A DNA stretch of 64,000 nucleotides, from the NCBI GenBank assembly GCA_032622095.1, contig CP136061.1, positions 6,460,734-6,524,733 on the forward strand. The letters are read 5' to 3'. The position numbers and the translations under genes were made by a program. Below are positions 451 through 49,403 of the stretch, one piece after another. This stretch comes from Siphonodentalium dalli. Lineage: Eukaryota > Mollusca > Scaphopoda > Gadilida > Siphonodentaliidae. Numbering within the stretch: the first letter of the stretch is position 1; every line of letters starts with the position of its first letter. The notes below the pieces were generated by a model. The model had not been told where the DNA came from and did not search any database. It was given only the letters and a program-made list of their open reading frames with translations.

Positions 451-916
451 ATATATGTGACCCGCCATATCAAATCCAGTGGTAAGTCGGGATTTTATTA
501 CCCTGTGCCAATGCATTCTCTTATATATGCGAGTCGACCATAGGTCGCCTCGCATATATAAGAGAATGCATTGGCCTAACAATTTTTTATCATTTTTTTT
601 AAATAAATGTTTCCTAACAATTTTTAGGACATAAAATAAAAAACATCCATTACCCTGCAGGGAGCCCCACACATATATAGAAGCATATAGAAGAGTGTTG
701 TATGCTCATGTTGTCTGGGGCTCTGTATGGGTGAAATTATAAAATTGTTAAAGAATACAAGAAAAAATTATTAAAATTGTAAAAAATTGTTAGGCCAATG
801 CATTCTCTTATATATGCGAGGCGACCTATGGTCGACTCGCATATATAAGAGAATGCATTGGCACGGTAAAAAAATCCCGACTTACGACTGGATTTGATAT
901 GGCGGGTCACATATAT
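451..916. mobile_element. Double-hairpin MITE (family A core) with GACCCGCCATAT termini
   Basis: The ends are inverted copies: ATATATGTGACCCGCC at the left, GGCGGGTCACATATAT at the right. Inside each arm lies a second palindrome, GCATTCTCTTATATATGCGAG...CTCGCATATATAAGAGAATGC, with centre TCGACCATAGGTCG. The spacer has another inverted pair (GAGCCCCACACA / GGGGCTCTGT). No ORF, so a non-autonomous fold-back element. Confidence 0.85.
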
Positions 917-1261
917 TGAACCTAACTGTAATTTTGGCACTTGGAATGACTTGATAAAACAATAAAACAGGAATTATTCGATAAATTTTTAGGTACTGAG
1001 GAATCTGACTTTGTATATTATTAATATCATGATCTTGTGAGAACTTGTGTTGTGGCCTGGTCAGTCCTGTGATCGGCCAGCATTGAGGACCGCAGTGGAA
1101 ATAAGTGAGCTTTGGCTTGCTTTCCTGTGGGCTCCTTGATGGCAACAGATCGCATGACTTGTCATACTGAGAATATTCATGTGTATATTTCTCCTCTACT
1201 TCTGTATCTATCTCCATCTTTTAATGTCTTACTTATCTCCTGTTATCTTACTAGTATCTAG
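917..1261. other. Unassigned intergenic DNA
   Basis: No gene, repeat array or RNA recognised. Confidence 0.5.
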
Positions 1262-1488
1262 CAACATGACAGTCCTGTTGAGGGAGGAGGGTGGCATATG
1301 TAGACAGCCCTGTTAAGGGAGGAGGGTGGGGTATGTAGACAGCCCTGTTGATGGAGGAGGGTGGGGTATGTAGACAGCCCTGTTGAGGGAGGAGGGTGGG
1401 GTATGACCGTATGTAGACAGCCATTTTGAGGGAGGAGGGTGGGGTATGTTGACAGCCCTATTGAGGAGGAGTGTGGGGTATGCAGTGC
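1262..1488. repeat. Minisatellite, ~36-bp unit, about 6-7 copies
   Basis: Tandem copies of GAGGGAGGAGGGTGGGGT followed by ATGTAGACAGCCCTGTT. The last two copies carry small insertions. G-rich on the + strand. The antisense reading frames here are low-complexity by-products. Confidence 0.9.
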
Positions 1489-1574
1489 AGGTTGGTTATC
1501 ATATATCATATATTGTGTGGAATATGTTGCACGTCTGTCAAAATGGGAGGCCAAATTCACATTTATTAATAATT

Positions 1575-2290
1575 GTGCTTCAGCGCAATCCAATTGCGCT
1601 GAAAATTCATTTGCGCTTCAGCACAATTAATTTTATATATATGGCTAACCTCCCCCCAGTAAATTAATGAATAAATCCAATACAAAATCAATTGCGCTCA
1701 AGCGCAATTATTTTCCCCATATATGGCTAACTCTGAGTTAATAAATAAATCCAATGCAAAATTAATTGTACTGATAATTTTCCTATTATCAGGTTAACCC
1801 CCAGTTCAGGGGTGTAAGCTTATAACAATAATTATGCTTCAGTGCAATTGAATTGCGCTGAAGCGCTATTTATATGAATCAGGCTGGATTGTGCTTTATA
1901 TCTTATGTACATTGTATATGGCTAAACCCCTCCCATTAAATTAATGAAGAAATCCAATTCAAATTCAATTTCGATCAAGCGCAATTATTTTCCCCATATA
2001 TGGCTAACCCAGAGTTAATAAATAAATCCAATACAAAATTAATTGCGCTGAAGTGCAATTCAATTGCGCTGAAGTGCAATTATTTTCCTATTATCAGGTT
2101 AACCCCCTGTTCAGGGGTGTAAGCTTATAACAATAATTGTGCTTCAGTGCAATTGAATTGCGCTGAAGCGCAATTTATATGAATCAGGCTGGATTGTGCT
2201 GAAGCCCAATTGAATTGCACTGTTCAAAGCACAATTGGATTGCACTGAAGCGCAATTGAATTGTGCTGAAGCGAAACTATTAATAAATGT
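1575..2290. repeat. Palindrome-rich repeat block (TTGCGCTGAAGCGCAATT motif)
   Basis: The palindromic word AATTGCGCTGAAGCGCAATT and near copies occur more than ten times. They sit in a ~306-bp duplicated segment: CCTATTATCAGGTTAACC...GGTGTAAGCTTATAACAATAATT appears near 1781 and again near 2087. Looks like fold-back repeat accumulation. No gene. Confidence 0.8.
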
Positions 2291-3178
2291 TAATTTGGCC
2301 TCCCATATGTCTATGGTCTAAGTCATCACATTCCCGATGTTCATCAAGGAATACATTCAAAAGAGGCTCCTGGATCACTTTTCCATTTTAGAGTTATCCA
2401 TCTTTATCCATAAATAATGTTTTTCTAGAAATCTCAACAATGGGTTGTCGGATTGCAATGAAATTTGGTGTGCATGTTTACCCTCAACGTGCTCTCAGAA
2501 GAGATTACATTGTTTTTATTCGGGGCTTCAATTCTAGATTTATTTTTCTTATCTGTAATTTGTAAAAAGTTGATGACATGAACAGCTGACATGAAAGGAT
2601 TAAAAACAAATCAGACATATCAATTTGAATAATAAATTAGATAATAAATTAATAATTCTCCGCTTAAAGTAATGAAATCAAGTCACGAGAAGAACTGGTA
2701 ACGAATAATATGGTTAGGGTGTTAGGGTCGTTCATTAGAAAATGGTACGTGAATATTAAAGTACGGAACTTCAAACCCAAAACATATCGCGTATTTTCGA
2801 CCTATCGGAAAATTTAAAATTTTCTCTCGACGAAAGGAATCTTTAATCGGTATTTTATAGCGAATACAAATTATCACAGATCTATAGTATTAACATATAC
2901 GAATAAATTGACATGGATGTCATTACTTGTGGTTTTCAGCATCGAGATGTAGTCGTGGAAAAGTAAATTTGAATCAGACATTTGAAATTGTCAATTTCAA
3001 TTTTCATTATTGATTGTGTCATTACTGTCAACGCCAAAAAAACATTGAAAAAGAGCAGACCACGACCTGTGAATTTAGTGACCGGATTGTTTTAAAACGT
3101 ATTCCCATTCTGAATCCAAAACATGAATTCTTTTTAAATGACATTGAGTAAAATTTTAAAAGAAGTTATGACTATGAG
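2291..3178. other. Unassigned AT-rich intergenic DNA
   Basis: 2380-2560 resembles the dispersed tandem-core repeat family (GAAATTTGGTGTGCATG). Nothing else recognised. Confidence 0.5.
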
Positions 3179-6589: not shown

Positions 6590-6870
6590 AGTGTGACCTA
6601 TAGATGGGAGCTACTGGTATAAATTTTTTCCGAATTTTGTTGAAAACATGGTCACCAGCAGCCATCTTTGATTTCAAATTTGAATCCATCGCGCACTCTA
6701 TAGCCCGTATTTATGGCTGGATCATTTTTTTATTTTGCTAGCATGATTGTGATCACCTGTAGATGGGAGCTATCAAATTTGAACGATTTTCGATGAAAGA
6801 CATGGCTGCCAGCAGCCATTTTGAATTTTACTCTTTGCATGACCAAATACTTTGGCACACCCTACAGACC
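6590..6870. repeat. Dispersed tandem-core repeat (GCAGCCAT motif family)
   Basis: Two diverged units with ATAGATGGGAGCTAC and CAGCAGCCATCTTTGATTT wording. The same family is at 15955-16560, 21540-21890, 27890-29290 and 40750-41425. Confidence 0.65.
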
Positions 6871-8885: not shown

Positions 8886-9411
8886 ATATGTGACCCGCCA
8901 TATCAAATCCAGTCGTAAGTCGGGATTTTTTTACCCTGTGCCCAATGCATTCTCTTATATATGCGAGTCGACCATAGGTCGCCTCGCATATATAAGAGAA
9001 AGCATTGGTCTAACAATTTTTTATCATTTTTTTAAAATAAATGTTTCTTACAATTTTTAGGACATAAAATAAAAAACATCCATTACCCTGCAGGGAGCCC
9101 CACACATACTAGTATATAGAAGCATATATAAGAGTGTTGTCTGCTCATGTTTGTCTGGGGCTCTGTATGGGTGAAATTATAAAATTGTTAAAGAATACAA
9201 GAAAAAATTATTAAAATTGTAAAAAATTGTTAGGCCAATGCAATCTCTTATATATGCGAGGCGACCTATGGTCGACTCACATATATAAGAGAATGCATTG
9301 GCACAGGGTAACCCATAGAGAGCCCCACACAGCCTGGAGCAGACGACACTATTTAGTGCATGCTTCCATCTGTGTGAGGCTCCCTGTGGGTTATAAGGTG
9401 GGTCATATATG
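8886..9411. mobile_element. Double-hairpin MITE (family A core), second GACCCGCCATAT copy
   Basis: Same structure as 451-916: the left end ATATGTGACCCGCCATAT, then both hairpin modules. The right end (GGTGGGTCATATAT) is diverged. An extra hairpin lies at about 9309-9393 (AACCCATAGAGAGCCCCACA / TGTGTGAGGCTCCCTGTGGG). Confidence 0.8.
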
Positions 9412-11417: not shown

Positions 11418-14400
11418 GCAAATTTAAAACAGCGCAAAAAAATAATATGCAGCGAATTTAAATACTAGTAAGGTAGGTGAACAAACGATGAATGCCCACT
11501 TCGATGTGAGACATATTGATTTCATTTTCCAGCAAATAATGACATATTAGTAGGTTCCCCACCCCTTGGACCCGTCAATTGAAAATTGAGGTTGTGAGAG
11601 CACCCTGTCTCCGGGAAAAGAAATAAAAAACTTGACCCCAGGAGCCAGCCTAGAGGATGACTTGGAGGAGGACTAGCCTAGAGGATGACCTGGGAGACAT
11701 CTTCTCTCTAAAATGTGCCACTTCTCCCTACGTTTGTCCTGGGGAGAAGTTGCTTCTCTCTCATAAACCAGTATTCATATGTCCCAACAGCATATTTGAA
11801 GTATATTTATTAATTATAATGGTGTTCTTACTCACTAAAATGGTTTTATAAATAGGTCCTTGTTTTGCATAATACTTTTTGGATCATAGAAGAGTGATAT
11901 TGGGGTGTAAATTGAACTTCAGCCTTTCTCACTTCTCCCTAATAACAGTCCGCTTCTCCATAATAACAGAAGTGACTTCTCCCAAGTCATCCTCTAGGCT
12001 GGTCATCTCCCAAGTCATCCTCTAGACTGGTCCTCTCCCAAGTCATCCTCTAGGCTGGTCCTCTCCCAAGTCATCCTCTAGGCTGGTCCTCTCCCAATTT
12101 AAGTCATTCTCTAGGCTGGTCCTCTCCCAAGTCATCCTCTAGGCTGGTCCTCTCCCAAGTCATCCTCTAGGCTGGTGCTCTCCCAAGTCATCCTCTAGGC
12201 TGGTCCTCTCCCAAGTCATCCTCTAGGCTGGTCCTCTCCCAAGTCATTCTCTAGGCTGGTCCTCTCCCAAGTCATCCTCTAGGCTGGTGCTCTCCCAAGT
12301 CATCCTCTAGGCTGGTGCTCTCCCAAGTCATCCTCTAGGCTGGTCCTCTCCCAAGTCATTCTCTAGGCTGGTCCTCTCCCAAGTCATCCTCTAGGCTGGT
12401 GCTCTCCCAAGTCATCCTCTAGGCTGGTGCTCTCCCAAGTCATCCTCTAGGCTGGTCCTCTCCCAAGTCATTCTCTAGGCTGGTCCTCTCCCAAGTCATC
12501 CTCTAGGCTGGTCCTCTCCCAAGTCATCCTCTAGGCTGGTCCTCTCCCAATTTAAGTCATTCTCTAGGCTGGTCCTCTCCCAAGTCATCCTCTAGGCTGG
12601 TCCTCTCCCAAGTCATCCTCTAGGCTGGTGCTCTCCCAAGTCATCCTCTAGGCTGGTGCTCTCCCAAGTCATCCTCTAGGCTGGTCCTCTCCCAAGTCAT
12701 TCTCTAGGCTGGTCCTCTCCCAAGTCATCCTCTAGGCTGGTCCTCTCCCAAGTCATCCTCTAGGCTGGTCCTCTCCCAATTTAAGTCATTCTCTAGGCTG
12801 GTCCTCTCCCAAGTCATCCTCTAGGCTGGTCCTCTCCCAAGTCATCCTCTAGGCTGGTCCTCTCCCAAGTCATCCTCTAGGCTGGTCCTCTCCCAAGTCA
12901 TCCTCTAGGCTGGTCCTCTCCCAAGTCATCCTCTAGGCTGGTCCTCTCCCAAGTCATCCTCTAGGCTGGTCCTCTCCCAAGTCATTCTCTAGGCTGGTCC
13001 TCTCCCAAGTCATCCTCTAGGCTGGTGCTCTCCCAAGTCATCCTCTAGGCTGGTCCTCTCCCAAGTCATCCTCCAGGCTGGTCCTCTCCCAAGTCATCCT
13101 CTAGGCTGGTCCTCTCCCAAGTCATCCTCTAGGCTGGTCCTCTCCCAAGTCATCCTCTAGGCTGGTCCTCTCCCAAGTCATCCTCTAGGCTGGTCCTCTC
13201 CCAAGTCATCCTCTAGGCTGGTCCTCTCCCAAGTCATCCTCCAGGCTGGTCCTCTCCCAAGTCATCCTCTAGGCTGGTCCTCTCCCAAGTCATCCTCTAG
13301 GCTGGTCCTCTCCCAAGTCATCCTCTAGGCTGGTCCTCTCCCAAGTCATCCTCTAGGCTGGTCCTCTCCCAAGTCATCCTCTAGGCTGGTCCTCTCCCAA
13401 GTCATCCTCTAGGCTGGTCCTCTCCCAAGTCATCCTCTAGGCTGGTCCTCTCCCAAGTCATTCTCTAGGCTGGTCCTCTCCCAAGTCATCCTCTAGGCTG
13501 GTGCTCTCCCAAGTCATCCTCTAGGCTGGTCCTCTCCCAAGTCATCCTCCAGGCTGGTCCTCTCCCAAGTCATCCTCTAGGCTGGTCCTCTCCCAAGTCA
13601 TCCTCTAGGCTGGTCCTCTCCCAAGTCATCCTCTAGGCTGGTCCTCTCCCAAGTCATCCTCTAGGCTGGTCCTCTCCCAAGTCATCCTCTAGGCTGGTCC
13701 TCTCACAAGTCATCCTCTAGGCTGGTTCTCTCCCAAGTCATCCTCTAGGCTGGTCCTCTCCCAAGTCATCCTCTAGGCTGGTCCTCTCCCAAGTCATCCT
13801 CTAGGCTGGTCCTCTCCCAAGTCATCCTCTAGGCTGGTCCTCTCCCAAGTCATCCCCCAGGCTGGTCCTCTCCCAAGTCATCCTCTAGGCTGGTCCTCTC
13901 CTAAGTCATCCTCTAGGCTGGTCCTCTCCCAATTTAAGTCATCCTCTAGGCTGGTCCTCTCCCAAGTCATCATCTAGGCTGGTGCTCTCCCAAGTCATCC
14001 TCTAGGCTGGTCCTCTCCCAATTTAAGTCATCCTCTAGGCTGGTGCTCTCCCAAGTCATCCTCTAGGCTGGTGCTCTCCCAAGTCATCCTCTAGGCTGGT
14101 CCTCTCCCAAGTCATCCTCTAGGCTGGTCCTCTCCCAAGTCATCCTCTAGGCTGGTCCTCTCCCAAGTCATCCTCTAGGCTGGTCCTCTCCCAAGTCATC
14201 CTCTAGGCTGGTCCTCTCCCAAGTCATCCTCTAGGCTGGTGCTCTCCCAAGTCATCCTCTAGGTCCTGTTTCCAAAGTCATTTTCTAGGCAGGTTCCTGT
14301 CTCCCAAGTGAGGCCAAGTTTTCTTTTCCAGGCGACAGGGTGCTCTCACACTCTAAAATTTGTTCAATTGATGGTACCAGGGTCGAGGACATACTAGTAT

Positions 14401-25900: not shown

Positions 25901-28900
25901 TTTAGCCCCTGCAAAGTATTTTGGCGAGGGCGAATTTTAGCCCCTGCAGATTTTTCATAAGGCCAGCACTGCGATGGGACAAACCATTGTTGTCCCATCG
26001 CGTTATATATTTGCCCAATACGGCCTCATTTATTTTCCCCTGGTGGAAACCCTGATACATCGTCGCCATCCATCCGTGGACACGAATTTGTCCGGAGTTT
26101 ATCTCAGTCGTTTCTTAATCAAAGATTTGTGGTGTATGAGTTCACCTGACCATTACCTAGAATGAGTTCGCAAGCCAGGTCCGGCCGGATATTTTTACCG
26201 GTGTTATTGGACTTTGTTTATTATTTTTGTTGAATTTACCCAATAGCAAATAGACGTCACAGGGCTCATTTCCACAAATCTCAAAGATATTTGGTATATG
26301 AGTTCACATGACCAGTATCTAGAACGAGTTCGCAAACCAGGTCCGGCCGGATATTTTCAGCAGAGTTATTGGACTTTGTTTATTTTTGAGTGTGCAAATG
26401 GACGACGTCACAGGGCTCATTTCCACAAATGTCAACGGATTAAAAACATTTTTGGTATATTCGTTCCCATGACCAGTACCTAAAATGAGTCTGCAAGCCA
26501 GGCTTTTTGACAAAATCCCACCTCTTTGTTTAGCACATACTGAGAACGCAACCATTATTGAGAATGCACTTCCCCAACTGCACTATTCGGTGGGGGATAC
26601 CGCCGTCTGCGACTGCTTGTTTTAACTTAATGTTTACTGACATGTAAAACATCTTAGTGTTTTTAAAAACACAGGGGGTATCCTAGGTCCCATTGGGACA
26701 GTCACACCTGTAGTTTCATATGTTTTATATAGTTTCTGGGGTATAAAATAATAAATATGACTCAAAGACACTTGTCTGGAAATGCTTCTATCAATTACTA
26801 TACAATTTATATTGATATTTTCTTATATACCGCGATAATCAATTGAGACATATTTTCGTTACTATTTTAGATAGAGTTATCCCGCATGCTATGCTCTGAA
26901 TTAACGCGAGCCGTAAAATGTCCCAAATTGATTGTACGTGTATATTATACCAGAAAATATGAAATAAAATCAATATTAATTGATAAAAGGGTTTACAGAC
27001 AAGTGTCTTCGAGTCATATTTATTATTTTATACCCCAGAAAAAATTGAAGCAAAATAAATATTAATTGATAAGAAGCTTTCCTAGACAGGTGCCTTCGAT
27101 TCAAATTTATTACATTTACAGAAACTACATAAAATTTGTTTGGACGAGATAAGCTATCATTTACATTAGCGAAGAAAAATGGGTGGTATACTGGTTTGAC
27201 TTTGTCCCTATATTCTGTCCCTATACCCCAGAAACTATATAAAACATGAAACTAGACGTGTGACTTGTTATAGGAAGAGATAGACCATATATAACTTGTT
27301 CATTTCAGATGTTTGACAGAACCATTAAATGTAAAATTGCTAAAGACAATGGAAGAGCAGCGGATTTCATAAGGAGGAAGGAGTATAAAGATAAAACGAG
27401 ATGTTATGAATGTGGTGAATCTGGACATCTCAGCTATCAATGTCCGAAGAATCTACTGGGCGATCGTGAACCACCGAAAAAGAAAGAAAAGAAGAGAAAA
27501 AAGAAAGATGGCGAATTATCAGATGAAGAAGAGTAAGTTTGATTGTCTTAAATAACACTCCTATATGGAGCCCCACACAGACCCGAACAGACGGCAGTCA
27601 TCAGTGCATTGTTCTCTCTTTATGGGGCTCCATAAGGGTTATATAACACTCCTATATGGAGCCTCACACAAGACCCGAACATACGGCAGTTATCAGTGCA
27701 TTGTTCTCTCTGTCTGGGGCTCCATAAGGGTTATATAACACTCCCACATGGAGCCTCACACAAGACCCGAACAGACGGCAGTTATCAGTGCATTGTTCTC
27801 TCTTTATGGGGCTCCATATGGGTTAATGACATATCTCAAGATATTAAGATACTAGTTAGCTTTACTTTGTAAAGTTTGAGCTATTGCCTACTGTTTGTCT
27901 GATCATCATGAAATTTGTCATGGATGTTAATATTAACATGTAGATGGGAACGAGTCACTTTGGGCGGATCGGCCATAAAACATGGCCGCTGGCAGCCATC
28001 TTGGTTTTATTCTTTTCCATGACTAAATCGTTAGGCACGGGCTACAGGTCATACCTTTTGTCGGATCATTATGAAATTTGTCATGGGCATTGACATGTAG
28101 ATAGGAACAGGTCATTTTGGGGTCATTTGGCAAAAAAACATGGCCATCTTGGATTTCAAAATTCAATCCATTAGCACAGGCTACGTCAGGCCATATTGTT
28201 TGTCTGATCATCATGAAATTTGTCCTTTATGTTAATATTGACATATAGATGGGAACAAGTCATTTTGGGGTAATTCGGCCTTAAAACATGGCCACCAGTG
28301 GCCATCTTGGATTTTACTCTTTGCATGACTAAATCCTTTTGCCTGGGCTACAGGTCGTACCTTTGGTTAGATCATCATGAAATTTGTCATGCTGTTGACA
28401 TTGACATGTAGATGGGAACGAGTCATTTTGGGGTCATTCAGCAAAAAAACATGGCCACCAGCAGCCATCTTGGAATTCAAAATTAAATCCATTAGCACGG
28501 GCTACAGGCCGGAGTTTTCGTCTGATCATCATGAATTTTGTCATTGATGTTAATATTGATGTAGATGGGAACGAGTCATTTTGGGGTCAATCGGCCATAA
28601 AACATGGCTGGCAGCAGCCATCTTGGATTTTAATCTTTGCATGACTAAATACTTTGGCATGAACTACAGGTCATACCTTTGGTCGGATCATTATGAAATT
28701 TCTCATGGCTGTTGACATTGACATGTAGATGGAAAATGAGTCATTTTGGGGTCATTCGGCAAAAAATAAAAATGGCGCCAGCAGTCATCTTGGATTTCAA
28801 AATTCAATTAGCACGGGCTACAGGCCAAACTTTTCGCCTGATCATCATGAAATTTGTATTGATGTTAATATTGACATGTAGATGGGAACGATTCATTTTG

Positions 28901-31900
28901 GCGTCATTCAGTCATAAAACATGGCCGCTGACAGCCATCTTGGATTTTACTCATTGCATTACAAAATCCTTTGGCACTGGCTACAAGTCGTAGCTTTGGC
29001 CGATCATTATGAAATTTATCATGGCTGTAGATGGGAACGAGTCATTTTGGGGTCATTCATAAAACATGTCCACTGGCAGCCATCTTGGATTTTACTCTTT
29101 GCATGACTAAATCCTTTGGTACACCCAACAGTCCACTTCCCTCAGCCGATAATCACCAAACTTCATATTAATCTTGATATTGATCTAGTAGATGGAATCT
29201 ATCAAATGTTTTTGAATTTTATTCGAAAAACATAGTCGCCAGCAACCATCTTGAATTTTACTTTATATATATATCTCTTCATGTTGACACTTTCATTTAT
29301 TATATTTTCATTACTTTTTCTGCTAAAATAAAAATCGTAAAAATAATCCTCCGCATCTCACTGGAGGAGAATCTTTGTTCGTCACTGAGGACAGTTAACT
29401 ATATATAGAGAACAAGTGCGATGAGATATCATGTCTGTTAATTATTGTCTACAGTTTATATATAGAGGATCTCCAATGAGTTTTTGATATCTTGGCCCGT
29501 GAAATAAAACGGTACTCCCAGATTGGCCAATTACTTATACAAGGGGATACTAATGGCAGGACAGGGGGACTGGCAGATTATCCTCGGAACGAGGCGAACA
29601 GACATCCCATAAATAAACGGTGTAATGTTGATAAAACAATAAACAGCAGGGGGAGGGATTTAATTGATATATGTATTGACTCGGATATGCGAATCGCCAA
29701 TGGCTGAACGACAGGTGACATTACAGGAAAGTTCACATCATTCCAGCCAAACGGGTCATCGGTTGTTGATTATGTGATATACAGTGATCCCCTTTACCAG
29801 GGTTTCCGCTAGGGGGTAGGGGAATGGGGCCTGTTTGTAGATAGGGGAAAACACGAACACCTGCTTCGAAAATTTAGAAAAGTGCAACACTAGAAATGCA
29901 TTGTCCAGCACGCCCAGAACGCGAATTACGATTATAATTATGGTATGTATACATTCTCAAAATTAAAACAAGAAATGTAACAATTTACATCGTTTATGTG
30001 ATACAACAGTCAGTCAATTAACCACATTATTGTGATTGAACTGAGTGAAATAAAAACGAACTTTTAACTGAGACTAGCTTCAGATTAATTTTTTTATTTC
30101 CGGTGGGTAGAATAATTAAATGTACTATGATATTTCGTACCAGTTAAAATTCAACTATACTCTTCGCATGAGGAGGTGCCTCGCCAAGTCATCAAGGGAA
30201 GTTCATGACCAACAGTAACATTCACTCGTCTTTTAAAAATTAATTTGATCTACGAACACTGGTTTAAAAAGCTTGGAACTATTTTGTTGTCGCATTCAAT
30301 CATTTGGGGGTCGCACAATTGAAATTACCTCGAGAGAATTGCTGCTATCGGCGGGAAAGTGTTAGCTATGATGCTTCATTGGGCGGGGGGGTCACACAAT
30401 TGAAATTGACTCGAGAGTATTGCTATCGGCGGGAAAGATATATACTTGATAACCAACGAAGCTATGACGCTTCATTGGTAGAGTTACGTCACAAATATCG
30501 CATTCGCATCGTACACAAAATATATTGTTTCCGGCTATATATTACGAATCGATATACTGAGGGTTTTACGGTTACACGAAATTCCAGGGTTTTCAAGGAG
30601 TTTGCATTAAAACAAGGGGTTCAAGGGCCCACGTGGAGCCTTTAACGATACATTCAGATCACTGTCAGTGCTGGTACACATTAAATGTTAATACGACTCT
30701 AGCAACAGTAGATCAAAGTGTCACAATCGAACTCACACAATTACCAGAAAGCTTCATTTTCAAGATGCATTTCAACATATAGATATTCAAAACAATATAC
30801 AGGAACTAATGTGTTCAGAAATCTCAGATCCAGAAATAATGCAATGTAAAGTGAATGCTATATTTCATGTTGCCACTTCTCGTTCATTCAAATTGCGGAA
30901 ACAAAGCTGCATGACTAAGATTCGTGTCAAACATAAACCGTGGTTCGATCGCGCATGTTATGAGATGAAACAACAGTTGAAGCTTTGTGCATGGGAACTT
31001 AATGCTCAGCACTGTGATCCAGTCGTCCGGGAAAATTATTTTTCGCCAAAAATGTCAATATAAAAAACTCATAAAAAGGAAACGTGGTGATTATCGGAGT
31101 AATATATATGGGCAACTGGTACACATGCAAAACAATAAGCCGAAGGAATACTGGTCGCTAGTTAAACCATTGGATCGCGAGTCCTCTAATTCAAATAAAA
31201 TGTCGCAATCAGTTAGCCCCGATGAACTCTACGAACACTTTAAAAATCTCGGACAGACAACGGACGACACCGGTGACCCTTTCTCTGATAACATCCATGG
31301 CCAGGTATCTGACATGGAACAAAATATCTCCTCCAATAATCACCTTGATTATGACATATCTACAGAAGAAGTTGAAAAAGCATTGCATAATTTAATAATC
31401 GGAAAATCAGCTTTTGGCCCTGACAACATTAAAGCAGAAATGCTGAAAGCTTCTAAAGTATATACTCTCCCACTGTTAACACGTCTTTTTAATTTGGTTC
31501 TCAGTAAGGGACATATACCTAGCAAATGGACTGAAGGCATAATTGTTGCTATTCCAAAATGTAATAATGCAAATTCCCCGGACCAGATACGGGGTCTGAC
31601 ATTAACTAGTGTTCTTGGGAAAATGTATGCCAGCATTCTTCTTGGGTGTCTAGACGAATACTTAAACGAAATGGAGGTTCCTTCCGAATATCAGTGTGGC
31701 TTCAGAAAGAATTACAGGACCACAGACAATTTATTTATTTTAAAATGTTTAATTGAAAAACTTATACAGGTAAATGATGGCAAAAAATTATACACATGCT
31801 TTGTGGACTTCAAAAAGGCATTCGACAGTATCTGGCGAGAAGGATTATTATATAAACTATTAAATCTAGGAATTGGTGGGAAACATCTATATGTGCTTGA

Positions 31901-34900
31901 AAGAAATAATAACCTGCTATTCTTCAAGGTTAAAAATTAATGGAAATTCTCTTACTGCACCCATAAACAGCCAAATCGGCTTAATGCAAGGAAATAACCT
32001 TAGCCCTTTATTATTCAATATTTTCGTAGATGGTCTAGCAGAAGAACTAATAGCCGACGACATGCATGCGCCTTGCATAGATAATTTTAAAGTACCGTGT
32101 TTACTGTACGCTGACGATCTCGTATTAACTTCGGAGTCACAAGACGGCTTGCAAAAAATGTTGACTCAACTGAACATTTTTTGTACGCGGTGGAAACTAA
32201 CTGTGAACAAAAATAAGACCAAAATTTGATTTTTAACAAAAGTGGAAAAAAACTAAAACCCAATCCTTTTCAAATTGGTACTCATACGTTGGAAACGACA
32301 CAACAATATACATATCTTGGGTTGAAAATAGCGGGCGTCTGGCACTTTCTCACATGCATTAAACGATTTAAAGATTAGAGCATCGAGCGCTCATTTTTCA
32401 CTACAAAGAACATGTGACGACTCGGCGCCCATTGATGTCACGTGCAAACTTTTTGATTCTTGTGTAAAACCAATATTGACTTATGGGTCTGAAATATGGG
32501 GTGACTATTCAGAAAGCCGCAAGGAAAATCCCATCGAAAAAATTCCGCACACAATTTTGTAAACAAAGTTTGGGATTATTTAGGAACACATCTAATATGG
32601 CTGTACTAGCCGAAATGGGTAGATTTCCGATCTATATCAAAATATATCAATGTATTAAGGAACATGATACTCTATTGGCTTCGAGCAAACACCTTTGTGT
32701 GAGAAACGATTGGTGTATAAATGTTTAAAATTGTTTTTCTTGTGATGTGGATAATGAGTGGTTACAGTGTATTAAAAATAACTTATATAAATATGGATTT
32801 GGGTACGTGTGGGAATCACCAAAATCGGTCAACATAGATACTTTTGGGGAGAAATTTCAATCCCGATTACAAGACCATTTCCGACAATCATGGAGGCACC
32901 TTGATATAAAAGGTGCATGTGCAGAAAATAGTAAATTAGAATTTATGGGAAAATCAAAACAGATTTTGAAACAAGGGCTTCTTATTTAACAATGTTATCT
33001 CGAAATTAAAGACGTCCAATATCAAAACTTGTTACAAGCTCGCACAAGCTCGAAATAGAAATAGGCAGAAAAGTGAAACCTAATCCAATCCCCGTAGAGG
33101 AACGAACTTGCAAACAATGTAGTCATAATATGCCCGCTAAAGATAAACCTATCGAAGATGAGTCTCACTTTTTATTACACTGCCCTAAGTACCACAATCC
33201 TAGGCAAGTCTTTAGCAGTTACGCGAAGAATGTGATATCAAATTACGATGTGTTAGACGAGCGCCAAAAGCTTCAAGAAATATTCAAATCTAATGATAAA
33301 CAACTGAGCAGAGCTCTAAGTAAATATTTAATTGAAGCCGAAATATTACGACAATAACACTGTAATCACTCAGCACAAATATTCTATTTTATTTGCATGT
33401 TTATGTATATATATATTTTTGTTTTTCTCTCTTTGCCATATCCTGTATCCGTATAGCGATTGCGCAATAAAGTATCTATCTATCTATCTATCTATGTTGA
33501 GATATAAGATTATATGAAACGAGTTTGATAAATTTGATTCACAACGAGTCATAGATAAGTTGTCAGAGAAATAGATGACTTCTCAAATAATATTGTGGTA
33601 TTAGGAATTTTTTTTGTTGGTTAATTGAGCAAGGAGTTCTCCAAATTTGACCTGGTGACCTCATTTTAACAAATCTGATTGTGAGTCACCTAGGGAACAT
33701 CCACACCAAATATGAACCCATTCAGTCTTATTTCTGGAGAAGATCTTAAAGAATTGTAGATGGATGGACGGACGAAGAGTGATGACTATAGCTCCACCGG
33801 AGACTTCGTCTCAGGTGACCTAAAAAGTGCCCAGTGACGTTGTTTGCATTTTCTATTCTAGAGTTATCCTTCTTTAGATTTTATTTTTGTCCTGCCCATG
33901 TTTTAATATTCTCAACGTCTTGTTGATTTTATTTTCTGGTTTTATAGGAACAGTAACGATGAAGAGGTGGGAGAGGATACATCTATGGATTCCTTATCTG
34001 CAGCCATTAACTATCAGGTAAATCTATCATTCTATGGATTCTCTATCGGCAGCCATTAACTATCAGGTACATCTATCATGGGGTAGGGCCTTTCCATGGG
34101 GCCTACAATGTAGATTTGCGCAGATATCAAACTGGAAAATGAAGTTCCAGGTTTTGGAAACTCATTGGAAAAAAAATTACCGTTTTTTTTTGTGAAAATG
34201 GAGAATACTGGAATACATTTAAGCAAACACGATGCCAAGTCACATAGTAAGAAACACGCTGCCAAACATGCTGCCAAAGTCAAATAGAAAAAAACACACT
34301 GCCAAAGTCAAATAGAATAAAAGGTCAGCCCACCACAGTGTTCCCCGACAACGTGGCAAGTCGATGCCGCTTTGTTAAAGAAATTTTAAAAAATGTTGAA
34401 ATGTTCTAAGTCGAAACGGTTAATATACCGGTAACTTAATAACTCCATAAACAAAAATTTTTGTCACCTATATACATGTTGCACATCTCCAATATGTGGG
34501 TAACAATACTCTGAAGTTTCAAATATCTACGTTCAGAAATTTTCTGTCAAAAAGGGTTAATAACTCCGTAAAAAATAATTTTTCCGTCATCAATATAAAT
34601 GTTGCACATCTTCAATATATGGGCAACAATATTCTGAAGTTTCAAATCTCTAGGATGAAAACTGTAGGAGGAGTTGATTACACCATGAAGGTACCCTCAT
34701 ACTGAAAATTATAAAAAATGTTTAAATTTTCTGTCAAAAAGGGTTAATAACTCGGTCAAAAAATAATTTTTCTGTCATCTATATACATGTTGCACATCTT
34801 CAATATATGGGCAACAATGTTCTGAAGTTTCAAATGTCTGGAATGTTGGGGGACAAAATAACACACTGCCAAAGTCAAATAGAAAAAACACGCTGCCAAA

Positions 34901-37108: not shown

Positions 37109-37112
37109 TTAA

Positions 37113-37354
37113 CCCTTTGAGTGCCAGGTCGATTTTTGTATCAACCCATATACCCTGTGCCAATGCATTCTCTTATATATGCGAGTCGACCATAGGTTGC
37201 CTCGCATATATAAGAGAATGCATTGGCCTAACATTTTTTTTTTTTTTTTTTTTTAAACAATTTTTTACAATTTTAATAATTTATTCTTATATTCTTTAAC
37301 AGACTTATTTTGTAGGTTTAGGGCCGATGAGATCGACCCCTGGCACTCAAAGGG
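37113..37354. mobile_element. piggyBac-style MITE with family A left hairpin
   Basis: TTAA (37109-37112 and 37355-37358) flanks CCCTTTGAGTGCCAGG at the left and CCTGGCACTCAAAGGG at the right: TTAA duplication plus CCC ends as in piggyBac. Inside is one full GCATTCTCTTATATATGCGAG hairpin and a T-rich spacer. Confidence 0.88.
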
Positions 37355-37499
37355 TTAAAGATGCTCTATCTCTTCCTATAACAAGTTTTATATAGGAACA
37401 ATAAGTAACGAACTCTTTGCAGAAACTTTCCACCATTACGTCGACTAAGGAGCTGAACATTAATGACTTGAGTCTCTAATTATGTTCTGTATTTGTAGC

Positions 37500-37930: not shown

Positions 37931-37963
37931 TTTTTGTTCCTGTTATGCTGACGAGTCCCTTAA

Positions 37964-38196
37964 CCCTTTGAGTGCCAGGGGCCGATCTCATCGGCCCTAA
38001 ACCAACAAAATAAGTCTGTTAAAGAATATAAGAATAAATTATTAAAATTGTAAAAAATTGTAAAAAAAAAAATATTGTTAGGCCAATGCATTCTCTTATA
38101 TATGCGAGGCGACCTATGGTCGACTCGCATATATAAGAGAATGCATTGGCACAGGGTATATGGGTTGATACAAAAATCGACCTGGCACTCAAAGGG
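37964..38196. mobile_element. piggyBac-style MITE with family A right hairpin, opposite orientation
   Basis: TTAA at 37960-37963 and 38197-38200; ends CCCTTTGAGTGCCAGG / CCTGGCACTCAAAGGG. Inverted relative to 37113-37354 and carrying the same hairpin. The pair encloses the SINE. Confidence 0.88.
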
Positions 38197-38231
38197 TTAA
38201 TATATATGGACCTGCTATTATTAAGTTTTAT

Positions 38232-39262
38232 TTAGTTTCATATGTTTTATATAGATTTTTTATATTATAAGATTCCTGGGTATAAAATAATAAAGACACC
38301 TGTTCGGAAATGCTTCTATCAATTTATATTGATTTTATTTCGAATTTTTTGATACACAAAACATGTACATACTTTTACCTAATATATTTCATTTACCTTA
38401 TCATTATGTTGAAATTAAATTGTTGTTAAATTTAGCTTATATAATACAATAACCGAAGATAAACTGAAACATTTGCCCTTTTATCCGCTAAAAAAATTTC
38501 ACACTGGTTATATTTCGAGTGACTGCGTGGCAATACGTTCTGGGCATGTGAATTATTACTTCTGGTAGAAACCTCTTATGGACGACCACCTGTCATTGGC
38601 AAAATGGGTGGTCGTTCATAACAGGTTTCACTGTAATATACATAGAAACTATCTGGGATATTTTATAGCTCGTGTTCGTTCGGATTGTATCATGCGGGAT
38701 AACTCTGTCTAAAATTCTAAAAACAGTCACGAAAAAATATCCCACTTGATTATCGCATTATATAAGAAAATATTGATATAAAATCAATTTAACCCTTTAC
38801 CCAACAAAACGGCCAAAAACGCCCAAATAAAGCTTCAACAGCCTAAAATATCTTCGGTCTGTCTCAATAACACCATACAAATATGGATATCATTGGAACC
38901 GGTTCATTGACCACATTGTGATGGTTACAGTTATGCCCTGTGCCAATGCATTCTCTTATATATGCGAGTCGACCATAGGTCGCCTCGCAAATATAAGAGG
39001 CATAATTTTTTCTTGCATTTTTTAACAATTTTTATAATATTTTTCTACATTCTTTGACAATTTTATCATTTTTAATATGTGTTAAGCCAATGCATTCTCT
39101 TATATATGCGAGGCGACCTATGGTCAACTCGCATATATAAGAGAATGCATTGGCACAGGGCCGTTCTGTTGGGTAAAGGGTTTAATTGATAGAAGTGAAT
39201 CCGGACAGGGGTCTTCACTTCGATTCATATTGATTATTTTATACCCCGGAAACAATATAAAA
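38232..39262. mobile_element. Copy of the 26701-27264 element, split by another MITE
   Basis: Left TTTCATATGTTTTATATAG and GGTATAAAATAATAAA; right ATTGATTATTTTATACCCC and ATATAAAACGTAACAAGAGG. Interrupted at TTAA by 38793-39181; the intact copy reads AATCAATATTAATTGATA at that place. Confidence 0.6.
38793..39181. mobile_element. TTAA-flanked MITE with CCCTTTACCCAACA ends and both family A hairpins
   Basis: Ends CCCTTTACCCAACA-AAACGG and CCGTTCTGTTGGGTAAAGGG; TTAA at 38789-38792 and 39182-39185. Contains a left hairpin (decayed) and intact right hairpin GCATTCTC...CCTATGGTC...GAGAATGC. Different termini from 37113 but the same core. Confidence 0.82.
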
Positions 39263-41425: not shown

Positions 41426-41584
41426 AAAAAAATTTCTGACTAAATCCTGAAAAGTTACCCATAATTCTGCTGTGGTTAAGGAGTCGATTGTTTAGAGCAT
41501 TACTGTATGCCCACGTTAGACGGTACCTGGTGACAGCCCAACTCTTGTTGTGATTGTGACATAAACCCAGACCTACTTATTTAA

Positions 41585-41834
41585 CCCTTTAATGATGGGA
41601 GCTGCGCTGGTGCAGCATTAGAAGACCCTGTGCCAGTGCATACTCTGATGTATGTGAGCCTCCCATAGGAAGTTGTGCATATATAAGAGAATGCACTGGC
41701 TTATAAGATCAAGGTGAATATTGTTAGGCCAATGTATTCTCTTATATATGTGAGGCTCCCAATGGGAGCTTCCTGAAATTTTGCAAAAACCCTGTGCCAT
41801 TGCAAAATTTCAGGAAGCTCCAGTCATTATATGG
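41585..41834. mobile_element. TTAA-flanked MITE, family A variant (GAGCTGCG ends)
   Basis: TTAA at 41581 and 41835; left CCCTTTAATGATGGGAGCTG. Both hairpin modules are present but diverged (GTGCATACTCTG..., TGTATTCTCTTATATATGTGAGG) with centre CTCCCA(T/A)(A/T)GG(A/G)AG instead of GACCATAGGTC. Confidence 0.75.
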
Positions 41835-42008
41835 TTAAGATCAAGAGTAATAGTGGATAAACAAAGAAACAGAACAAACAATTAATGAAACATTCTAATT
41901 TTCTATAACAAATATCACATAATTTAACAAAAATTATTCTTAGTTCAATATGATTAATGACTCTGGTTACCAAATTTTCCACAGAACTCCCCAAGATTTT
42001 CATATTAA

Positions 42009-42157
42009 CCCTTTCATGACTGGAGCTGCGATGGTGCAGCATTTAAGATCTTGTGCCAGTGCATTCTCTTATAGGGAGCCTCGCATATATAAAACAGTGC
42101 ACTGGCTTACCAGGTCAAGGTAAATAGTGTTAGGTCATTGTAATCTCTTATATAGGC
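42009..42157. mobile_element. Left part of a family A variant MITE, interrupted by a hAT element
   Basis: TTAA 42005-42008, CCCTTTCATGACTGGAGCTG, then the left hairpin GTGCATTCTCTTATA...TATATAAAACAGTGCAC and start of the right hairpin, cut at 42157 by the hAT insertion. The remainder is not found after 43183. Confidence 0.75.
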
Positions 42158-43175
42158 CAGGGTTGGGGTAATCGTAATCAAAGTAATTGACTACAAAATT
42201 TAGAGTAATCATGACATGTTGTGATTACAAGTAATCGTAATTGATTACTTTCAAATGTACCTGTAATCATGATTACATTTTGATTACTTTTACTAAAATA
42301 TCCATATGGATGGATATTGGATACTCATAGTCTCACACTGTAGTAATGTGGAGTGTGCACAGATACAAACAACATATCAGAAAGTTAGTACAATTTTTTC
42401 ATGTGTTGTGTTAGTGGTACACTGTGTACATTCTGGCAGTGGACACAGATAACACACAATTGCTGAAATGTTGAATACAGAAAGTATGGCAATAAACTTA
42501 TGATACAGACAATGAAATGTTCTAATATGAATAAAATAGGCTAGCCAACTTCAATTAGGATTAAATATTATTGAGAATGCTGCAGACAATGACTGTAGAG
42601 TCACTGGTACAATAGGGCTAATTAACTGAACAAAGCAGGTGTGATGTACATCAGTAGACCTAATTAGCTGGGTTGTCATTTACTGCATGCACTCATGGAG
42701 TTAAGCCTCAATTAATCCTCATCAGGATATGGCAAATTAAAAAATATATTAAAAATATATTTACATAAATAAATACACATAAAACATAATATATTCCCAA
42801 TAAGTTGGTGCACAACTTCATGGTGAAACCTCACCAATACATGTAAATATAAAAAGTCTATGTGTTTATTGATTGCTTCTTTCTATTGTTTCAGTCGTTT
42901 CTTGTTTCCAAGTTATGTAGTGATGTTTTTTTTATTCAACCAAATTTGATATTTTTATTTGATTTATATTGTTATTTATTCCTATGCGATCAAAATGGTT
43001 GGAAACTAACAATTTTAATAAGATGTAATCGAAACGTAATCCATTAAATTTACTAAAGTAATTGTAATCGTAATCAATTACATTGGAACAAATGCAATCA
43101 GTAATCGTAATCATGTAAATCAAAAGTAATTGTAATCATAATCGATTACATTGGCATGTGATCGCCCCAACCCTG
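42158..43175. mobile_element. hAT-type element, 1018 bp, with perfect 8-bp duplication
   Basis: Ends CAGGGTTGGGG / CCCCAACCCTG; ATATAGGC at 42150-42157 and 43176-43183. Both subterminal regions are packed with GTAATC/GATTAC words (more than ten per side, both strands). The middle is AT-rich with no transposase. Confidence 0.95.
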
Positions 43176-43642: not shown

Positions 43643-43646
43643 TTAA

Positions 43647-44409
43647 CCCTTGGATGACGGCAGCTGTGTTGGTGCACCATTAAAGATCCTGTGCCAGTGA
43701 ATTCTCTTATATATTCCGAGTCTCCCATAGGAAGCGTCACATATATAATTGCTTTATTTATATCCCCTCCTCAATTTTGTTTATTCGGATATCTTTTAAT
43801 GTAAACTTTTTTTTCATGCCTTGACTGTCAAATAACATTTCAATGACCCATTAATCAGTCAATGTTTATTAAATTGGATAATCTATTAATCTATTAATCA
43901 CCTTGTATTATATAAGATAGGATAATGCTTCAATATCTATAACTGTCCCCTCCTCAATGAAGCGTCACATACATGTATATAATTGCTTTATTTATATCCC
44001 CTCTTCAATTTTGTTTATTCGGATATCTTTTAATGTAAACTTTTTTTTCATGCCTTGACTGTCAAATAACATTTCAATGACCCATTAATCAGTCAATGTT
44101 TATTAAATTGGATAATCTATTAATCTATTAATTATATAAGATAGAATAATGCTTAAATATCTAGAACTGTCCCTTCCTCAATTTTTTTTTATTAAAGACC
44201 CTGTGCCAGTGCATTCTATTATATATGCGAGTCTCCCAAAGGGAGCCTTGCATATATAAGAGAATGCACTGCTTACAAGATCAAGGTAAATATTGTTAGG
44301 TCAATGCATTCTTATATATGCGAGGTGCCCTATGGGCGACTCACATATATAAGAGAATGCATTGGCACAGGGTTTTCGAAAAAATCAGGAAGCTCCTGTC
44401 ATGGAAGGG
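43647..44409. mobile_element. TTAA-flanked family A variant MITE enlarged by an internal duplication
   Basis: TTAA at 43643-43646 and 44410-44413; CCCTTGGATGACGGCAGCTG at left, AGGAAGCTCCTGTCATGGAAGGG at right. The left hairpin is cut near 43745; a ~233-bp segment (ATTGCTTTATTTATATCCCC on) is then present twice before complete left and right hairpins at about 44200-44370. Confidence 0.8.
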
Positions 44410-44639
44410 TTAATCATCAAATTACATTTCAATGATCCATTAATCGTCTATTTTTATCACATTGGACAATCTAAATCACCTTGTATTATATAAGATAGGA
44501 TACTGCTTCAATATCGAGAACTGTCCATGACCATTTATGTTAGGAAGAATAAAATATAAAAAATAAATCCGCCCTCCCACCCCATTTTTCTGAAAAAGTT
44601 GGATGTAAATCGGGCAATTTATTTATATTGGTCATATAC

Positions 44640-44695
44640 AAGAGAATACACTGGCTTACAATATTGTTAGGCCAATGTATTCTCTTATATATGCA
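44640..44695. mobile_element. Family A fragment
   Basis: CAAGAGAATACACTGGCTTACA...GTTAGGCCAATGTATTCTCTTATATATGC only. Confidence 0.75.
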
Positions 44696-45229: not shown

Positions 45230-45286
45230 CATTTTTCTCCCAACCCAAATAGCCTCATTCCGATTTTTTGTTTTATACCAATCAAT

Positions 45287-46667: not shown

Positions 46668-46721
46668 ATTTCATCTATTTTACCACTTAAGTCACTGAGT
46701 AGATCTAGATTTGAGCCTACA

Positions 46722-46850
46722 TCAATCGGGAAGTGACGACTCTTCGTTAACAAGCCTTTCTGAGCCCCGTCCTTCAATCTCAATTCTTTTCCATCTGTTC
46801 GGAGGCCACACTATGTGCGTTGCCTTGGCAACTATCATTCCCCTGGACAC
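46722..46850 (-). CDS. IMMP2L: IMMP2L terminal coding exon
   Basis: On -, acceptor CTTCATTACAG then GTG TCC AGG: VSRGMIVAKATHIVWPPNRW, then KRIEIEGRGSERLVNEESSLPD and TGA (46724-46722). 42 residues. The conserved core is ATHIVWPPNRW; the tail is variable in the family. Confidence 0.92.
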   Translation of the reverse strand: MSRGMIVAKATHIVWPPNRWKRIEIEGRGSERLVNEESSLPD

Positions 46851-49403
46851 CTGTAATGAAGAATTATTTCAATCTGAAAACAGATAGCAAAAATAGAAGT
46901 AACACTTAACCAAGCGGGCTAGCATCACCAAATTCACCCTCTGGTGACCTCATTCTGCTTAGGCCTCATCTTCTGGGAAATATATATACAGTATCAAATT
47001 AACATTGTTTTTAGTTTTCCCTTCTGGGAAGTTTCTATATCCCCTAATTTGCAGGAGATAAAATGCATAATCGAGGTGCCCAATGGGTGAACATCATCAA
47101 CTTCAACTGGGGAACTTCAATCTGATCCTAGGTCTGCCATAGCAGTTGAGGGCCTAAGCAGAATGAGGTTCCAAGAGGGTGAATTTAGTGATGATAGCCC
47201 ACTAAATTCACCCTCTGGGGACCTCATTCTGCAACTGACAGATACACTATTTGCAGGCTTGGTAACACATAATAATCTGTTAACCCTTTCATGACAGGAG
47301 CTTCCTGAATGTTTTTGACAACCCTGTGCCAATGCATTCTCTTACCATAGGTCGCCTTGCATATATAAGAGAATACATTGGCCAAACAAATTTTATATTA
47401 TTTTTTATAATTGTTAAAAAATGAAAGAAAAAAGAAAAAAATGATAACAAATTATGTAAGAATGTAAGAAATAATTAAAAAAAATTATAAAATTGTTAAA
47501 GAAAAAATTATAAAAATTGTTATAGAATGTATTAAACAAAAAATATAAAAAATAATATAAATTGTTAAATAATGAATGAAAAAACAATTAAAATTATAAA
47601 AATTGTTAATCAATGTAAGAAAAATTTATAAAAAATGATAAAAAATAGTTTGGTCAATGCATGCTCTTCTATATGCGAGGCCACCTATGGTCAGACTAGC
47701 ATATATAAGAGTATGCATTGAAACGGGTCTTTAATGTTGTGCCAGCCAGCTCCCATCATGAAAGGTTTAAGTTTATGACAAATGAGAGGCCGATCACAAT
47801 CGGCAGATGTTTAACCCATACCTTGGCGATAGCGATTAGCTATAACTGATAATTTGTTAAAGATATGATCACAGGAATCCATATATCAGTACCCAACTTG
47901 AAATCAAAAGCTCAAATAATTTGTCTTAAGAAGGGTTAAAGTATTTGGGGGTGGGGAGGAGTAGTTTTAAATCTCATAACTCTGTCCCTATTCACGCAAG
48001 GACATCTCACTGTGAGATCCAACAGTTTAGTGATTTCGGAATATATGTTTAGGAGTTTAAGTTAACTCATTGGAAGCCAAAGTGATAAACCCCTTTCTCT
48101 GCCACTATTGACCTGCCAAATATTCAATAATTCGTTCACTTCTAAAGATAAATAAAAGGTCAGCTGACCACAGTGTCCCCCGAAAACGTGGCAAGTCGAT
48201 GCCACTTTGTTGAAGAAATAATTTTTTGTTGTTGAAAAGTCGAAAAGGGTTAATAACTCCGTCAAAAAATAATTTTTCCTTCATCAATATACATGTTGCA
48301 CATCTTCAATATATGGGTAATAATACTCTGAAGTTTCAAATCTCTGGGATGAAATCTGTGGGAGGAGATGATTACATCATGAAGGTACTCAAAAGTGTGA
48401 CGGACGAACGGACGGTGCAACGGACGGACGGACGGAGCCCGTTTCTATAGTCCCCCAAATATAATTTTTTCGGGGGACAATTATAATTTGTTGACAAGCC
48501 AGACTGCTTAGAACAACATACATGCATGGGATTCCATCTCATATTTAATTTGTATTTTAATTTAAATATGGGCAGGTCGGAAACCAAATTGTGAAAAAAA
48601 AATGTGATGAACAAACAAATTACTGGACAATTTCTAACGAACGACGGAGGGAAATCCAACATTTTCAGATAAAGAAAGAGGGATAACTCTTGAACGGAAA
48701 AGTGAACAATGTCAATGGACCCTCTTTTGAAAGCCCTCATGATGGTATACCTGCATACCAAATTTCATTGAGATCCGATAACCCATGGTTGAAATATAAG
48801 AGCGGACGGACGGAAACCAACATTTTTAGATAAAGAGGGATAACTTTCTGTTATTCACACCCTCATCTTCAAGATAAATGCCACAGTGTATAGTGATGAG
48901 GTTAGAGAAATGCCACAGTGTATAATGATGAGCTTTCTGTTATTCACACCCTCAGCTTCAAGATAAATGCCACAGTGTATAGTGATGAGGTTAGAGAAAT
49001 GCCTCAGTGTATAATGATGAGCTTTCTGTTATTCACACCCTCAGCTTCAAGATAAATGCCAGTGAATTGTGTATTTTATATAATGTGACACATAATTGAG
49101 GTTCCCAATCACAATATTCACCATTTGGGAACTTCAATCCGAGTCCATGTCTCTCATAGCAGATGAGGCAATGCAGAATGAGGTCCTCAGAGGGGGGAAT
49201 TTGGTGATGCTAGCCCGCTGTGCAGAATAGCATCACTAAATTCACCCTCTGGGGACCTCATTCTGCAAATGACAGACACACTATTTCAAGGCTTGCTCAC
49301 CGGACCAAAATGGTTGCTATCCATGCTGGACTTATGCTGGTCGCCCTCCACCCAGCAGTGTCCTTCCGGTACATCGATCACATCTCGATGTTCATTAACA
49401 GGT
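46722..49403 (-). CDS. IMMP2L: IMMP2L: mitochondrial inner membrane protease subunit 2, 3' part (two exons)
   Basis: Minus-strand exons 49301-49403 and 46722-46850 join in phase 0 to encode the last 76 residues. In the family this is a signal-peptidase-I-like (S26) serine protease of the inner mitochondrial membrane that trims intermembrane-space sorting signals. Seen: VPEGHCWVEGD followed by SSMDSNHFGP, the conserved box E of S26 proteases (GD...S-DS--FG), then ATHIVWPPNRW, as in vertebrate IMMP2L (ATHILWPPERW), and a stop. The catalytic Ser and Lys are encoded further 5' and are not in view; upstream exons should lie at higher coordinates, probably beyond the satellite. Convergent with ZCRB1, 11.2 kb between stops. 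The WVEGD and WPP-RW wording favours IMMP2L over IMMP1L. Confidence 0.9.
46912..47258. mobile_element. Double-hairpin MITE family B, copy with both hairpins
   Basis: A left half-hairpin to 46957, the spacer CCCCTAATTTGCAGGAGATA..., a right hairpin at about 47158-47232 and right tail CAACTGACAGATACACTATTTGC. The spacer matches 14966-15098. Confidence 0.85.
47284..47766. mobile_element. TTAA-flanked MITE with family A core and long AT spacer
   Basis: TTAA 47280-47283 and 47767-47770; CCCTTTCATGACAGGAGCT at left, AGCTCCCATCATGAAAGG at right. A left hairpin (deleted centre CTTACCATAGGTCGCC) and right hairpin frame a ~300-bp spacer of AAATTGTTAAA/ATGTAAGAAA repeats. Confidence 0.82.
47771..48229. 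other. Unassigned intronic DNA
   Basis: Nothing recognised apart from dispersed repeat similarity after 48150 (GGTCAGC...ACAGTGTCCCCCGA, also at 34320). Confidence 0.4.
48230..48480. repeat. Tandem-core repeat unit, GGACGG tract and terminal hairpin
   Basis: Same unit as 34425-34850, then ACGGACGGACGGACGGAG and hairpin TCCCCCAAATAT...TTTTTCGGGGGACA. Confidence 0.8.
48640..48835. repeat. Inverted relative of the 1-400 repeat
   Basis: AGATAAAGAAAGAGGGATAAC, CCTCTTTTGAAAGCCCTCATG, CAAATTTCATTGAGATCCGA, then GCGGACGGACGG. Confidence 0.75.
48844..49060. repeat. 89-bp tandem repeat, ~2.4 copies
   Basis: CTTTCTGTTATTCACACCC at 48844, 48933 and 49022; each full unit has an inner duplication of ATGCCACAGTGTATA-TGATGAG. 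Confidence 0.92.
49085..49292. mobile_element. Family B MITE, right half, abutting IMMP2L exon
   Basis: Spacer (AATTGAGGTTCCCAATCACA...), hairpin 49173-49266 and tail CAAATGACAGACACACTATTTCAAGGCTTG. Its tail ends about 6-9 bp from the exon's splice donor at 49300. Confidence 0.85.
49301..49403 (-). CDS. IMMP2L: IMMP2L penultimate coding exon
   Basis: On -, acceptor CACTTTTCAG, one base completing the previous codon, then 34 codons PVNEHRDVIDVPEGHCWVEG and DQHKSSMDSNHFGP, donor GTGAGC. Holds the S26 box E. The + strand frame across it is a shadow. Confidence 0.93.

Follow-up and report, generated by a model that had tools for sequence, protein, structure and literature searches.

A hairpin core shared by miniature transposable elements with unrelated termini in the scaphopod Siphonodentalium dalli

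How does one and the same interior come to lie between the ends of several unrelated transposons? The interiors of miniature inverted-repeat transposable elements (MITEs) are usually regarded as filler bound to one parent transposon. In a 64,000-nucleotide stretch of the genome of the scaphopod mollusc Siphonodentalium dalli (2.23 Gb, nine contigs), here termed the window (contig CP136061.1, hereafter C1, positions 6460734-6524733), an 80-bp hairpin unit composed of CCCTGTGCC, a stem, and GGCCTAAC occurs inside MITEs with four types of terminus (T1 to T4). The sharing of a module between MITEs with differing termini, as put forward in an original prediction made from the window sequence, is supported by our analysis. 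On balance, this core is probably a passenger hairpin cassette that the host families acquired in a few founder captures and that the transposase of each family then multiplied.

In its full form the core consists of a hairpin, an AT-rich spacer, and an inverted hairpin, and spans CCCTGTGCC...GGCACAGGG; GGCCTAAC, previously given as a module boundary, is the inner edge of each hairpin. The spacers have AT-rich units around TTCTTTAACAATTTT in common, as judged by eye. The exact first 33 bases of the hairpin unit, which served as genome search pattern, matched 123,995 times (62,106 + 61,889), as compared to no match (0 + 0) for the reversed pattern used as control. For two young-form window hairpins the folding energy is -55.1 kcal/mol (z -13.0 and -14.5), and for one T4 window hairpin it is -42.5 kcal/mol (z -9.9). 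Match counts and folding z-scores together exclude chance. The window had no Rfam match at gathering threshold, and a 22-base core arm had no match in viral and genome contig collections, from which the window's own records were possibly excluded. At about 0.73-0.92 Mb on C1, core copies are regularly spaced, i.e., in large tandem arrays, at intervals of ~14.55 kb (four matches) and ~11.17 kb (run 0.831-0.921 Mb).

Host families were characterized at 60 loci from the first 100 listed 33-mer matches, all on C1 at 0.1-5.9 Mb, with many locus and terminus assignments made by eye and segmental duplicates partly retained (e.g., L022/L026, L033/L047, L035/L046, L037/L044 and, among loci examined later in the text, L159/L160). 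Six terminus types cover 88 of the 94 hairpin ends with flanks long enough for classification (T2b 21, T1 20, T2a 20, T3 19, T4A 5, T4B 3), each joined at the same core base, and the six other ends belong to four loci that resemble two duplicated pairs. The precision of this edge is partly conditioned, because the loci were picked for an exact outer arm (75 exact ends: T2 33, T1 20, T3 14, T4 4, other 4); in the 24 hairpins that lack the exact 33-mer, the start lies at base 1 in 14 cases, at bases 2-3 in five, and deeper in five. The T1, T2, and T4 termini begin with TTAA followed by CCCTTT and have only CCCTTT in common, which is found in T1, T2, and most T4 tips and agrees with the CC[C/T]T tip of piggyBac-type elements. 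T3 lacks even CCCTTT and has the tip GTGACCCGCC... instead. The families also differ in build: T1 (242 and 233 bp without TTAA) comprises a ~40-bp left end, one hairpin, and a T1-specific right end; T2 (388 bp, TTAA not counted) is bounded by one side of 20 bp, which ends in AGAAGGG (or AGAACGG), and another of ~143 bp, which ends in GTTATG; T3 (454 bp at window positions 457-910) carries an inverted terminus of 44 bp at either end; and T4 has two unlike sides with the tip alone in common.

The target duplications separate the same families. In the sample, TTAA stands ahead of the tip in 29 of 34 T1, 41 of 45 T2, and 11 of 14 T4 ends. T3 duplications were scored in 23 copies, comprising 20 of the 40 best genome matches and loci L024, L035, and L037; L062 was left out because its right tip is altered. 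None of these copies has the TTAA of piggyBac-type duplications, and 21 have an identical 4 bp on both sides (ATAT 16, AAAT 3, TATT 1, ATTT 1). When the T3 tip was shifted by one or two bases, only 0-4 of the 23 still had identical 4 bp, and shuffled partners matched in 13.1 cases on average, with a maximum of 20 in 500 shuffles against the observed 21. T1, T2, and T4 thus lie at TTAA and T3 at a 4-bp AT-rich duplication, so that the cassette probably crosses transposase classes and is common to probably two of them.

Consensus hairpins of T1 (n=23), T2a (41), T2b (33), and T3 (75), from sets in which some duplicates may remain, do not differ from one another in bases 1-75 of 80; T2a deviates at base 76 and T2b at base 80. 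The full agreement of core and terminus histories that the original prediction had named as its refutation is excluded, as no alignment of the termini is possible, whereas the core consensus does not vary across 75 bases. As far as these comparisons go, they refute a simple divergence of T1-T4 from a common ancestor. Of the 102 hairpins in the tree, 66 are distinct, and 28 rows are occupied by one 76-base haplotype (13 T3, 10 T1, 5 T2). The tree requires 21 host changes, as compared to a minimum of three and to 43.7 with shuffled labels, which indicates partial clustering by host. Raw divergence, smaller for hairpins than for termini, had suggested slower hairpin evolution, an idea that was withdrawn after a split by family. 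Private non-CpG changes amounted to 9/1438 in the terminus and 10/2736 in the hairpin for T3, to 4/560 and 14/2016 for T2a, and to 47/1458 and 29/930 for T2b, and part of the earlier T2a and T3 divergence gap consists of subfamily-wide variants. The pooled non-CpG test favours a slower hairpin (p 0.0012), but is discounted because family weights are unequal and the diverged T2b supplies many terminus sites; pooled CpG sites gave 10/302 for the terminus against 7/632 for the hairpin (p 0.032).

Hairpin loops suggest an order of events. Among loci up to L175 and the window, the young loop TCGACCATAGGTCG is present at 193 of 205 T1-T3 ends and at two of 28 T4 ends, the old loop TCTCCCATAGGGAG at none of the 205 and at 16 of the 28, and ten T4 ends have neither. 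T4 hairpins are also the most diverged, and T4 as the older holder of the core fits these patterns, judged from one genome only. The core was thus probably first present in T4-type MITEs of the piggyBac (TTAA) kind, and its later form, with the young loop, may have become the interior of the T1, T2, and T3 founders on three or more rare occasions. The resulting chimeras would then each have been multiplied by the enzyme recognizing the outer terminus, presumably of piggyBac type for the TTAA families and, for T3, another one that leaves a 4-bp AT-rich duplication. Capture could have proceeded by template switching into an existing copy during the repair of transposase-made gaps, not by transposition of the core.

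Interiors are exchanged in the opposite sense, too. A palindromic interior unrelated to the core, TTCCTTGATCATTTTTC..., adjoins the T1 terminus at 6,703 exact 37-base junctions genome-wide, while T1 with the core has roughly 33,000 exact ends, a rough extrapolation (20/75 sampled x 123,995) from 6 Mb of one chromosome. T1 left ends not followed by CC matched 80 times, and the 20 loci examined by eye held a damaged core (8), the core spacer only (L123), a collapsed coreless element (L113), other sequence (4), or the other palindrome (L118, L122, L124, L127, L128, and L132). T2 right ends not followed by CC matched 20 times; by eye, 18 retain core remains and two (L141, L151) do not. A pattern for putative coreless T3 termini had 62 matches. 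A further hairpin module, M2 (TTAACCCATAGAGAGCCCCACACAG...), replaces most of the right terminus in the window element predicted at 8886 (9309-9393) and directly follows the T3 right end in four of four copies examined (L196-L199). As separate observations on M2, 79 of 99 exact TTAA copies of its 25-mer lie <=25 Mb from a chromosome end, against 20% expected, and a 92-bp hairpin unit, M2-like by eye, occurs three times in tandem at window positions 27548-27825.

Which transposases could have moved these hosts? The piggyBac transposase domain PF13843 has at least 128 matches, many with open frames, with the best 116 of 649 candidates scored. We searched for partners at 16 transposase loci, eight of ~4 kb and eight of 6 kb. 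Sites with TTAACCCTTT, found in five of the eight 6-kb loci, are candidate tips and continue ...ATCTGC (L168, L172), ...CGACGG (L173), ...AGCGTT (L174), and ...ACCCATCA (L175). The candidate tip of L175 matches the T2 tip at 13 of 14 bases, the only such locus among the 16. Loci L065 and L072 have a common end at TTAACACGTTGAGTGCCGG. T1 or T4 tips were not found beside a transposase in the 16 loci, though piggyBac-like TTAA tips are present there. Long T1 copies were also considered as the autonomous element, but three stretches of ~9 kb revealed a non-autonomous T1 form of ~470 bp instead.

Any explanation has to accommodate that the termini are unrelated and the core consensus is identical, that the duplications fall into two classes, that the copy number is so high, and that T1 has a second interior. 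It is conceivable, but unlikely, that the core moves, or once moved, as an independent transposon, with CCCTGTGCC/GGCACAGGG as its piggyBac-like CCCT tips, and in this way entered the founders of T1-T4. Its edge is a sharp CCCT in every host, and it directly follows TTAA at 324 sites genome-wide. We examined 32 of these loci, 31 of them distinct, and assigned 13 to T3, two to T2, and four to T4 variants (19 known hosts), with 12 lacking a recognized outer terminus; for L188, L191, and L195, the loose label given by a script was replaced by eye. TTAA is present also at the far end, behind a T4 tip, in three of the 12 (L159, L166, and L195), with the core edge at the other end. However, outer tip and core both start with CCCT, and a CCCT-CCCT microhomology deletion therefore yields the same product as a core edge acting as a cryptic tip and accounts for these loci equally well, and none of the 31 distinct loci has TTAA on both core edges. 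The host junctions differ, ending CATATA, AGAAGGG, GTTATG, TTTTTTTA, AAAGA, or CAAAAA, and have no common duplication. From base composition, free insertion would predict C-Y, which no known host has at this place in its consensus, before about a tenth of the cores, whereas only 30 of 123,995 have it; among 20 of these loci examined by eye, ten are T3, three T2, one T4, and six without a recognized left terminus. The empty sites suggested as a check were sought as a joined T1 palindrome, which had no match with up to three mismatches allowed; a later pattern yielded the one collapsed coreless T1-type element (L113). Movement of the core on its own into TTAA elements, the other proposal of the original prediction, is hence not supported by the sequences.

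A descent of T1-T4 from a single ancestral element, with divergence that changed the termini alone, is very improbable. TTAA followed by CCCTTT is common to T1, T2, and T4, but CCCTTT also opens TTAA sites next to a number of distinct piggyBac transposase genes, and past it the termini are unalignable over a core identical at 75 bases. Neither the different tip and duplication of T3 nor the second, unrelated interior of the T1 terminus agrees with such descent. Alternatively, selection among MITEs might have kept and spread the core as an aid to amplification under any transposase, through a replication or repair effect of the hairpin or a host factor, and any MITE acquiring the cassette would then become a high-copy family, whatever its transposase. 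We regard this, too, as doubtful. Several unrelated families do hold the same cassette at high copy number, and T1 with the core outnumbers T1 with the other palindrome; yet this T1 comparison is a single pair, extrapolated and confounded by age, and high copy number biases which families get noticed. Moreover, private changes are about equally frequent in hairpin and terminus in T2a and T2b, and in T3 the hairpin does not have clearly fewer.

Several points also weigh against a captured passenger cassette amplified by its hosts. No autonomous element is tied to T1, T3, or T4, and the link of T2 to one is a single tip similarity. That T3 uses another transposase class than the TTAA families we infer from its duplication alone, and because ATAT is self-complementary, only seven of the 23 T3 cases are informative on a direct repeat, of which five agree with it and two do not. 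The core tree has little resolution, since of its 63 inner branches one is starred, and the approximately unbiased test does not reject a grouping of T3 in one clade (p-AU 0.273). The order of events is read from this genome alone, and the sharp core edge is unlike the outcome of random template switching.

Within the window, all 20 hairpin matches (80-bp query) fall in the ten places predicted to hold a double-hairpin module, and each of the ten holds the unit. The predicted termini were confirmed at their positions, and TTAA borders the T1, T2, and T4 elements but not those of T3. The T3 element at 457-910 contains the double core in full, with hairpins at 501-580 (+) and 789-864 (-), and is flanked by ATAT on both sides (453-456 and 911-914); L093 resembles a duplicate of the T3 copy in the window. 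A second T3 element lies at 8890-9411 (hairpins 8934-9014, +, and 9229-9308, -), where the predicted ends need correction, as the right side consists of the second hairpin M2 and a short T3-like tip (9397-9411) and not of a full T3 terminus. Two hairpins per module hold for the full copies, but not for the two T1 elements predicted at 37113 and 37964. These lie between two TTAA each, in opposite orientation, at 37109-37358 (+; 40 scored genome copies with 92-100% identity) and 37960-38200 (-), and have one hairpin (37153-37232 and 38077-38156, respectively), the other end being the T1-specific right end. The T2 element at 38789-39185 has hairpins at 38936-38999 (shortened) and 39081-39160 and TTAA at 38789-38792 and 39182-39185, with an extra T on the right.

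The remaining places belong to T4 or are remnants. One T4 element is at 41581-41838 (hairpins 41626-41703 and 41723-41765, with an extra CCCTGTGCC remnant at 41790), one with an internal duplication at 43643-44413 (hairpins 43688-43748, 44199-44271, and 44295-44372), and one with a long AT-rich spacer at 47280-47770 (hairpins 47322-47387 and 47648-47720). At 42005-42161 only the left part of a T4 element precedes an insertion of ~1 kb (42158-43175) inside its hairpin, which ends CAGGGTTGGGGT/CCCCAACCCTG, is flanked on both sides by the 8-bp repeat ATATAGGC, and which we take to be hAT-like from its motif. The stretch at 44633-44694 is a core fragment with inner hairpin halves only. The count of ten modules is thus to be qualified, as the place at 44640 is a fragment, that at 42009 is interrupted, and that at 43647 has three hairpin matches. 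Nor is the core uniform, since the window T4 hairpins are more diverged (79-91% identity, matches >=43 bp) and mostly have a different loop. Elsewhere, the window contains a 28-bp minisatellite (11978-14263, ~81 copies) in its most GC-rich stretch, its sole open reading frame of >=150 amino acids (30987-31940; 317 amino acids), by eye like a reverse transcriptase fragment, and a 114-bp satellite (50010-64000) with ~123 copies to the window's end and strong strand asymmetry.

The original prediction knew of no named family with this architecture, but the coral CMITEs come close. Acropora CMITE families I-VI have differing terminal inverted repeats (TIRs; CCCTTT...), TTAA, and one conserved interior of 75 bp in ~100-bp elements, with about 1,600 copies and of unknown origin; its authors propose a role of the interior in transposition and cross-mobilization by various piggyBacs (PMC2872659). 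Differing TIRs, TTAA, one conserved interior, tandem arrays, and nested variants recur in our elements, the interiors being compared by description only. Our elements differ in their 80-bp hairpins, usually paired, in their 123,995 exact arms, and in the T3 host with its other tip and 4-bp AT-rich duplication (PMC2872659). T1, T2, and T4 resemble piggyBac-type MITEs in TTAA duplication and CCCT tips, from which T3 deviates in both respects, and the interior is common to several families. In Drosophila mojavensis, chimeric Galileo copies combine the TIRs of one subfamily with the interior of another, and exchange among copies is proposed; these, however, are subfamilies of one transposon with long homologous TIRs, whereas the termini here are unrelated (PMC3573991). 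A literature search, in which subscription papers were thinly covered, returned no published case of a MITE interior common to termini that differ in their duplications. The coral CMITEs are a close precedent. New here are the scale, the sharpness of the cassette edge, and a probable sharing across classes.

Because the T3 tip has neither CCCT nor TTAA, a combination of CC[C/T]T tips and a conserved interior under piggyBac enzymes would miss some carriers of the core. The S. dalli elements combine one interior under termini of probably two transposase classes with one terminus that has two interiors, at very high copy number. These natural pairs make the question raised by the CMITEs, whether a conserved interior matters for transposition, testable. 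They also carry a warning, in that grouping MITEs by interior sequence can merge unrelated families.

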